Shown one piece after another: positions 3,779 through 6,079 of a stretch of DNA of 54,192 bases. The DNA lies in contig JAWSUE010000001.1 of assembly GCA_033549065.1 (NCBI GenBank), forward strand, positions 124,944-179,135. The letters are read 5' to 3'. The DNA is from Bacillota bacterium. Lineage in GTDB: Bacteria; Bacillota; Dethiobacteria; DTU022. The notes under the pieces are model-generated. The model had not been told where the DNA came from. It worked only from the letters and a program-made list of their open reading frames with translations, and did no database searches. Position 1 is the first letter of the stretch. Each line of letters begins with the position of its first letter. The translations under genes were made by a program, and so were the position numbers.

Positions 3779-4858
3779 TTATCTTGCAGTAGCGCCGTTG
3801 CTTCTCAACAAGGATTTCATACCTTCGGTGGTTCTCACTTCCCCATCGGGCATAACCCATATCGCTTCAAAATTATCCAGGCTTTCTGCCAGGGTCTTGC
3901 TCTCTTCAAAGGGAATCAGGAATAGTGCGGTTGACATGAAATCAGCTAAACCCGAATCTTCAGCAACAACTGTAACTGCCCTATAGTGAGTTGCCGGCAT
4001 TAATGTTGCTGGATCAATCAAGTGATGGATTAATTCTCCTTCAACGATATAGTATCTCTGGTAGTCTCCACTCGTATCAACACTTCCGCGATCCAGGTAA
4101 ATTACATCCAGAAGTGTTTCCTGACCGCCGACAATTGAAGCTTGTGGATCCTGTATACCCACACCCCAGCGATCACGTTCTCCATCGCGAGGACTTCCAA
4201 CAATATGAATATTCCCACCCGCACTGACTATTGCAGAATTTAATCCTGCTTCTTCCAGCTCCTTGATTGCTATCTGCAGGGCATATCCTTTTGCCACGGC
4301 TCCAACATCAAGGCTCATTTGAGGATAGGGAAGATAGACTGTCATCTGTATGGTATCAACGATTACCTGATCAAGATCGGTGTATTCCATGGCTTCCCGC
4401 AATTTTTCCATAGGGGGCAATTCCGCATTTGCCGGATCAAAAAGCGCTTCTTCGCGATAGCTGTGCCAGATTGATAAAACAGGCCCTAGAGCAATATTGA
4501 CTGCCCCTCCAGTTTTTTCTGACCACTCTCGTGAAAAAAGAATAAGATCAATAATTTCTTGATCAACTTTTACCGGCTCTATCCCTGCACGATCATTGAT
4601 CGTCTTCAGGTTATTAACCCCTTCGTAAGTAATGTAGATATCGTATAGCCTGTGTAATTCTTTCAGGCGCTCATGAAATTTTTCAGCATACCCGTTGAAC
4701 TCTTCTTCACTTTCTGTATATGCCACAAACTGAACCAAAGTGTCGAATGTGTCAAAATAACTTTCCTGGTACCTGGTGTAACCAGTTTGACTGCGATCAG
4801 AGCAACCTGTAATAAAAATTAATACCACGACAAACAATACTATTATTAATTTTCTCAT
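3779..4858 (-). CDS. apbE: FAD:protein FMN transferase (ApbE family), lipoprotein
   Basis: Transfers FMN from FAD to a Thr/Ser of target proteins on the outer face of the membrane, making covalent flavoproteins. The 359 residues begin with a lipoprotein signal (hydrophobic stretch, then FITGC, lipid-bearing Cys near residue 19). They continue with ApbE motifs: FDTFDTLVQF, GAVNIALGPVLSIW, LDVGAVAKGYALQ, SAIVSAGGNIHIVG and a HHLIDPATLMPA segment with DSGLADFMSTALFL. The gene is 150 bp downstream of a two-domain FMN-binding lipoprotein on the same strand, which is its most likely substrate; the pair is probably one operon. Length and motif order are normal for the family and nothing appears broken. 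Confidence 0.92.
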   Translation of the reverse strand: MRKLIIVLFVVVLIFITGCSDRSQTGYTRYQESYFDTFDTLVQFVAYTESEEEFNGYAEKFHERLKELHRLYDIYITYEGVNNLKTINDRAGIEPVKVDQEIIDLILFSREWSEKTGGAVNIALGPVLSIWHSYREEALFDPANAELPPMEKLREAMEYTDLDQVIVDTIQMTVYLPYPQMSLDVGAVAKGYALQIAIKELEEAGLNSAIVSAGGNIHIVGSPRDGERDRWGVGIQDPQASIVGGQETLLDVIYLDRGSVDTSGDYQRYYIVEGELIHHLIDPATLMPATHYRAVTVVAEDSGLADFMSTALFLIPFEESKTLAESLDNFEAIWVMPDGEVRTTEGMKSLLRSNGATAR

Positions 4859-5008
4859 TAAATCTTCCTTCGCTACTTATTCGGATTCTAATAAATTCAA
4901 GCTGACAGAGAAAAGCTCCCGACACTTTATTATATCACTGTGCCGGAAGCAATTCTGTGATTAACTTTCCCAAATTAATATATTACATAATTTGTTCTGC
5001 TGTTTTTA

Positions 5009-6079
5009 TTACCTGGCAGTATCGTATGCTTCCTGCAGAGCTGTAAAGTAATAGGAAACCGTCATGGTTACCGATGTAACCAGATCTGCGTCAGCAGGTG
5101 AACCGTCTTCCTGAAGTTCCATTGCCAGGACTTCACTTAAAGTCTTCCCAACAATCCATTCTTCGAGGGAAGCAATTTGCTCATACCATTCTCTGCCGAT
5201 TTCAGATGCCCGGATCATCCCGTAATCAGCACCGAGTTCCTTCTTTGTTTTAACTTCCGCAGCCCGATCAGAGGTAACCGCTCCTTCAGCATCAAAATTA
5301 ACCCTGGTCTGTGCAGTATCGATCAGAACACCGACAACCCTACCTTCGCTATCAAAAGCAGCAGCCGCAAGGATAACATCAACCTGGGCTCTTGGCAGAA
5401 TATCGTTTTCTTCACTGTACCCATATGAGCTGGCAATTGAAACATCATGACCCAATCCAAAAGATACTGTTTCGGCTGTTACATCAAACGCATTGGCATA
5501 AGCTTTTTCCAGAGCAGCAATATAATCGGTTACCGTTATGGTAACACTGGTAGCCAGATCTGCTTCTTCAGGCGATCCGTCATCCTGTAATCCCATTGCC
5601 TTAACTTCATCAACAGTTTTTCCGATCATCCACTCTTCAAGAGCGTAGATCTGATCATCCCACTCAACGCCTATTTCGGATGCACGTATCATCCCGTAAT
5701 CAGCACCGAGTTCCTTCTTAGTCTTGATTTCTGCCGCGGTATCGGAAACAACCTGCAGCTCTTCATCATAATTAACACGCGTCTGTGCAGTATCAATGAT
5801 CACTTCTACTATTCTACCTTCAGCATCAAATGCTCCTGCGACTATAACGTTATCTACCTGGGCTATGGCGTTTACTTCTTCCCCTGCATCAACAGATCGT
5901 CCGATTGAGCTAACAACACCCATTCCGATGCTTGTTATCCCGCCTGCTGATGGGGTTTCATCAGGTGTTTCTTCTTCCGGTGTCTCTTCCGGAACTTCTC
6001 CTGAAGGTGTTTCACCACAGCCGGTAAGCATTATCAATGCCAAGATAATCACCAAGACAAACCAAAATGTTTTTTTCAT
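5009..6079 (-). CDS. Twin-domain FMN-binding lipoprotein, probable ApbE substrate
   Basis: A 356-residue secreted lipoprotein: signal peptide with lipobox LTGC (Cys 21), an acidic Pro/Thr linker (about 22-45), then two tandem homologous domains (about 55-200 and 205-356). Each repeat contains IDTAQTRVN, TKKELGADYGMIRASEIG, EW and GKT-EV blocks, and each ends in D-L-[AV]-T-S-V-T (residues 174-180 and 332-338, exactly 158 apart). This last block lies where FMN_bind domains carry the flavinylation motif Dxx[ST]GA[ST], with Ser for Gly and Val for Ala. I infer covalent FMN on T180 and T338. The architecture recalls the two-FMN lipoprotein PplA of Listeria flavin-based extracellular electron transfer; that comparison is from memory. 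The start ATG follows a GGGGAGG ribosome binding site. The adjacent apbE supports the flavoprotein reading. Confidence 0.8.
   Translation of the reverse strand: MKKTFWFVLVIILALIMLTGCGETPSGEVPEETPEEETPDETPSAGGITSIGMGVVSSIGRSVDAGEEVNAIAQVDNVIVAGAFDAEGRIVEVIIDTAQTRVNYDEELQVVSDTAAEIKTKKELGADYGMIRASEIGVEWDDQIYALEEWMIGKTVDEVKAMGLQDDGSPEEADLATSVTITVTDYIAALEKAYANAFDVTAETVSFGLGHDVSIASSYGYSEENDILPRAQVDVILAAAAFDSEGRVVGVLIDTAQTRVNFDAEGAVTSDRAAEVKTKKELGADYGMIRASEIGREWYEQIASLEEWIVGKTLSEVLAMELQEDGSPADADLVTSVTMTVSYYFTALQEAYDTAR

Follow-up and report, generated by a model that had tools for sequence, protein, structure and literature searches.

A PplA-like lipoprotein family of Bacillota, probably doubly flavinylated, with a re-spelled ApbE site and a divergent partner ApbE

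The lipoprotein gene and its neighbour

The window analysed here, a stretch of 54,192 nucleotides from a Bacillota genome, encodes on its minus strand a lipoprotein of 356 amino acids (5009-6079), which is a predicted substrate of ApbE. The ORF is preceded by a Shine-Dalgarno-like sequence (AAGGGGAGG) and begins with a lipoprotein signal peptide (6017-6079) that ends in the lipobox ...LIMLTGC21 and is followed by an acidic linker. Two domains of about 150 residues were delimited: domain A (residues 51-197, 5489-5929; family HMM 9.7e-63, also seen in the full-length model) and domain B (residues 207-356, 5012-5461; family HMM 3.2e-63). A pairwise alignment of the two copies (51-198 and 207-356) shows 62% identity. 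Each copy carries a predicted variant flavinylation motif that is conserved among relatives, D-L-A-T-S-V-T180 (5540-5560), beginning at D174, and D-L-V-T-S-V-T338 (5066-5086), beginning at D332, so that the motifs are 158 residues apart. An earlier note on this DNA, based on the letters and ORFs only, had described an internal duplication with a period of 158 residues, the sequence D-L-[AV]-T-S-V-T in each copy and apbE as the next gene on the strand, and this description was borne out: an apbE gene (3779-4858, minus strand) lies 150 bp downstream and matches PF02424 with E=9.9e-66. The combination of two-domain layout, motif and apbE neighbour is more than chance, because it recurs across dozens of genomes.

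Family and distribution

The lipoprotein is beyond the reach of the database models for flavin-binding proteins, as no match to PF04205 (FMN_bind) was obtained at E<=10 in a Pfam search, nor to NF041941 (PplA) at E<=1 in an NCBIfam search. Its weak Pfam and NCBIfam matches (Allantoicase, YD repeat and others) were rejected as chance or signal-peptide matches. The best PF04205 value for the single-domain relative L016 was E=0.25, and PDB sequence searches with the family returned nothing of note. No description of the family or of an S-x-V-T site was found in the literature, as covered by titles and the beginnings of abstracts, with few subscription journals among the sources.

Ten relatives turned up in one scan of named genomes. 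Profile searches extended the family to 27 of 97 genomes in the class and, among 398 genomes sampled from the phylum, to 42, two of which are represented by the remote LysM fusions described below. The source genome itself has two paralogues, the second being located on contig C17 and 52% identical. Most members have two domains; L016-L021 have one, and these genes adjoin Ndh2.

Several remote members have a different architecture. In L127 and L131 (genomes G431 and G469), LysM-domain proteins carry a remote copy of the family domain with a canonical site, and an apbE match was absent from the stretches read. In two secreted proteins (L125:4027-5076 and L126:16324-17373), a remote family domain comes after a canonical FMN_bind domain, and the contigs of both also encode a lipoprotein-apbE pair.

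Predicted fold

The earlier note had proposed comparing predicted structures of the repeats with FMN_bind and PplA, and the outcome is mixed. The model of domain B, built from 15 sequences, has a pLDDT of 86 and a pTM of 0.76. Foldseek found no match at E<=0.001 for either the full-length or the domain model. When the top 1000 Foldseek chains were realigned, the best PDB match of the domain model was 3o6u_A (Z 8.9, 2.8 A, 104 of 122 residues), with IscU-like folds and CO-dehydrogenase C-terminal domains following at Z about 7. The scores for RnfG (7zc6_G) and NqrC (4xhf_C) were Z 5.3 and 4.5, respectively. For the full-length model, derived from five sequences, IscU-like folds stood on top and no FMN_bind chain was among the best 50 matches listed.

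The structure 3o6u is CPE2226 of C. perfringens, which is PplA-type by sequence: it was found by the PplA-like protein L170 at 2.5e-21 and carries ITGATSSS, the GATSSS of which aligned with L170. The same protein also served as a template in a paper on the cAD1 lipoprotein (PMC7074142). A divergent FMN_bind-like fold is likely for the modelled domain, likely and not proven because a Z near 8 can reflect a common arrangement.

The putative flavinylation site

The family was compared by profile-profile alignment (hhalign) with FMN_bind2, PplA-like, mixed FMN_bind and FMN_bind1 sets, and its similarity to FMN_bind is weak and dependent on the template set. Against FMN_bind2, values of 76.8% (8 domains), 28% (20 domains) and 48% (20 domains, remote homologues added to the query) were obtained, the alignments covering most of the domain. 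Four PplA-like domains alone gave 1.5%, with an alignment ending ahead of the motif. Only the motif and the last helix were aligned with a mixed set of 41 FMN_bind domains (6.4%) and with FMN_bind1 (2.7%, or 5.9% when remote homologues were added). Column shuffles did not exceed 0.3% in 10 of 10 cases and five unrelated families did not exceed 0.6%. In all six profile alignments that reached the motif, the conserved Thr fell on the flavinylated Thr. At the corresponding site, L127 and L131 have DVTTGATMS, i.e. the canonical motif, and the two remote homologues situated behind a canonical FMN_bind domain have DVVAKATMS and DVVATATMS.

Motif positions were counted in 129 domains from 69 unique proteins, after removal of L105 (identical to L013), L008 (the same gene as L081), the remote members L125 and L126 (second ORF of each), L127 and L131, and the domain L090_2, which has no motif. 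The acceptor position is Thr in 126 domains and Ser, Met and Asn in one each. Position -6 is acidic throughout (Glu 83, Asp 46), position -3 is Ser or Thr in 116 of 129 (Ser 97, Thr 19, Ala 13) and position -1 is Val in 129 of 129. The substrate motif of ApbE, D-x-x-[ST]-G-A-[ST], was found in neither copy of the lipoprotein, both having S-V for G-A. According to a review (PMC12052999), Ala-to-Val and Gly-to-Ala changes in the canonical motif each lower flavinylation to about 50%; a re-spelled site is plausible since each change keeps about half of the modification, although these figures refer to single changes and both residues are altered in the family. The site has probably been re-spelled from Dxx[ST]GAT to [DE]Lx[STA]xVT, a step that forms part of the joint reading given below.

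The partner ApbE

The product of the adjoining gene is a FAD:protein FMN transferase with a lipoprotein-type signal. It is similar to FmnB (7esa, E=7.5e-37), and its S263, H279 and D306, which are common to the family clade and other ApbEs, match the triad of FmnB (Ser-His-Asp; PMC8906456) in alignment, so that both the PF02424 domain and the catalytic residues are present. It differs from other ApbEs in the loop T285-L-M-P288 (3995-4006, minus strand), which stands in place of T-G-x-P: position 286 is Leu in 55 of 57 ApbEs of the family clade and Gly in 20 of 20 others (O_L214 excluded). The complete TLMP loop occurs in 45 of the 57, and 4 of the 57 lie outside the pattern match.

Four of the 69 loci have under 700 bp of sequence downstream; in 57 of the other 65, apbE immediately follows the lipoprotein gene in the same orientation. 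Among the eight loci where apbE is not next, L099 has an upstream apbE and L104 is the first gene of a tandem pair. This pair (L104:7738-10146, genome G131) consists of two family lipoproteins ahead of a single apbE. In a tree of 56 partner ApbEs of at least 300 amino acids, 21 other ApbEs and one further ApbE of the family clade, all 56 partners grouped in a single clade (support 100/100) on a long stem of 1.78, apart from the 21 others; the 57th member is encoded in a genome where no apbE adjoins the family gene. Distances among lipoproteins and among ApbEs are correlated (Mantel r 0.88, 49 pairs, none of 2000 permutations as high), which would also be expected from co-inheritance of the operon alone.

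The single ApbE detected in genome G105 is a member of the family clade, and canonical FMN_bind domains are also encoded there. The clade may accept both sites, or be promiscuous, and this genome leaves strict dedication of the ApbE unproven. We would give even odds that the TLMP-loop ApbEs and the site [DE]Lx[ST]xVT form a dedicated, co-evolved pair, with a site poor for canonical ApbEs, and that in many Clostridia-like bacteria this pair has taken over from PplA in the electron-export loci.

Electron-export genes in relatives and in the source genome

In 15 of 69 cases the lipoprotein-apbE pair stands where PplA would be in a Listeria-type electron-export locus, complete or partial, and Ndh2 is encoded upstream on the same strand. 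Other companions are a DmkB-like polyprenyl synthase (12 of 69), UbiA (10), NusG_II (9) and Hpre_diP_synt_I (5) proteins, the last two being EetA-like and EetB-like, respectively. Family assignments were confirmed on representatives for four of the companions, UbiA being named from sequence and position only. A heptaprenyl diphosphate synthase component I is placed in the same cluster in the cAD1 paper (PMC7074142). In the canonical form of the locus (L170, genome G132), genes for UbiA, a PplA-like lipoprotein, a polyprenyl synthase and Ndh2 occur together, as named from their sequences. A search of 19 genomes found no clear PplA in those having the variant in electron-export loci. The positive control G132 scored 1.3e-58, G452 gave a partial match (1.4e-6, positions 176-281) and three others gave 1e-4 to 8e-4, with matches confined to the first 80 positions of the model.

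The situation in the source genome is different from that in these relatives. No ndh2, eetA, eetB or dmkA/B gene is found within the window, in agreement with the earlier note, which had seen no NADH dehydrogenase or quinone genes nearby. In a genome-wide search of the kind that it proposed, Ndh2 was not found in the genome, which is 97.8% complete (one 26% match); NusG_II and Hpre_diP_synt_I are present once each, both outside the window, and UbiA twice. Rnf-type clusters are located on contigs C10 and C9. The cluster on C10 includes an RnfG-like protein (L001 / L184:4823-5992; TIGR01947, 1.8e-31) whose single chain contains three FMN_bind domains.

Proposed function and alternative explanations

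The likely fold, the register and conservation of the motif, the gene pairing, the ApbE clade and the locus context of relatives were computed here. Their best explanation, to which we assign a probability of roughly 0.7, is that the lipoprotein is the substrate of the neighbouring ApbE. Once exported, this ApbE, itself a lipoprotein, would take FMN from FAD and attach it to both T180 and T338 of its neighbour through a phosphoester linkage, producing a membrane-tethered carrier with two flavins. In the manner of PplA, this carrier might accept electrons from a donor in the membrane and deliver them to acceptors beyond it, and the partner ApbEs would have changed as one divergent clade along with the re-spelled site. 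We infer the covalent FMN and the electron transfer, with its direction and acceptor, from these comparisons. In relatives with the full locus the donor would be the Ndh2/demethylmenaquinone/EetAB system. In the source genome, where Ndh2 was not found, Rnf/Nqr-type complexes are candidates for the donor. By parts, the gene pairing and the conservation of the motif are strongly supported, the fold is likely and the flavin chemistry is predicted.

The most serious alternative, though we put it at somewhat less than an even chance, is that the lipoprotein is flavinylated without exporting electrons here, passing them instead from Rnf/Nqr to a local extracytoplasmic reductase, the Ndh2-linked loci being a derived use in other lineages. 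The missing Ndh2 and the Rnf-type clusters of the source genome are consistent with this, as are the 54 of 69 loci that have no Ndh2 in the stretch read, with no other gene widely recurrent beside the pair. However, no reductase recurs, and the conserved redox partners, where there are any, are the Ndh2/DmkB/UbiA/EetA/EetB set. The suggestion of the earlier note that the protein serves a different electron sink stands only as a possibility for the source organism, and the computations support a divergent FMN_bind-like fold, the motif register, the ApbE pairing and the likeness to PplA, the likeness being stronger than could be seen from the sequence alone in view of the relatives that hold the PplA position.

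The family might also simply be orthologous to PplA and have drifted in sequence, which we regard as unlikely. Like PplA of the Listeria-type flavin-based extracellular electron transfer, it consists of surface lipoproteins, usually with two FMN_bind2-like domains and with an apbE partner (a likeness of layout and gene pairing, flavin binding being predicted), it has the same operon position in the 15 relatives and its top fold match is PplA-type. Yet NF041941 misses the lipoprotein while matching the canonical PplA-like L170 and L171 at 2e-58 and 5.7e-54, the domains have about 150 residues versus about 110 in those two proteins, single-domain forms exist, the site is S-x-V-T rather than [ST]-G-A-T and the partner ApbEs are a separate clade. 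FMN_bind2 domains as described in PMC10979944 likewise occur in pairs, and 3o6u is such a domain by sequence, but the family is below PF04205 detection and has an altered motif. The FMN_bind1 domains of RnfG and NqrC resemble the domain model at the fold scores given above, and differ in the motif and in the low profile match.

Still less probable is that the fold was kept while T180 and T338 carry no flavin, with ApbE modifying another residue or protein. The motif deviates at both Gly and Ala and the fold scores are middling; moreover, S218 and S292 are about as conserved as T338, which, like the three of the 129 domains that have no Thr, counts against the main reading. Against this stand the register of the Thr in every alignment reaching the motif, its near-invariance, the frequent pairing with apbE and, with the reservation about co-inheritance, the correlated distances. 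An IscU/NifU-like iron-sulfur scaffold, suggested by several IscU chains at Z 6-7, is hardly credible for a secreted lipoprotein in which the only Cys seen is C21 of the lipobox and for which 3o6u outscores IscU.

Implications

Taken together, the members look like counterparts of PplA. As judged by computation, they make up an undescribed, PplA-like family of FMN_bind2 type that is probably doubly flavinylated, its ApbE site being re-spelled and its partner ApbE co-evolved. Surveys of flavinylation that rely on the [ST]GA[ST] motif and the FMN_bind Pfam model would overlook it, and its recognition adds candidate electron-exporting bacteria without a recognisable PplA. The variant site would also be a second, naturally occurring spelling of the ApbE tag; together with its matching enzyme it would make the specificity of ApbE testable and could yield an orthogonal flavin tag.
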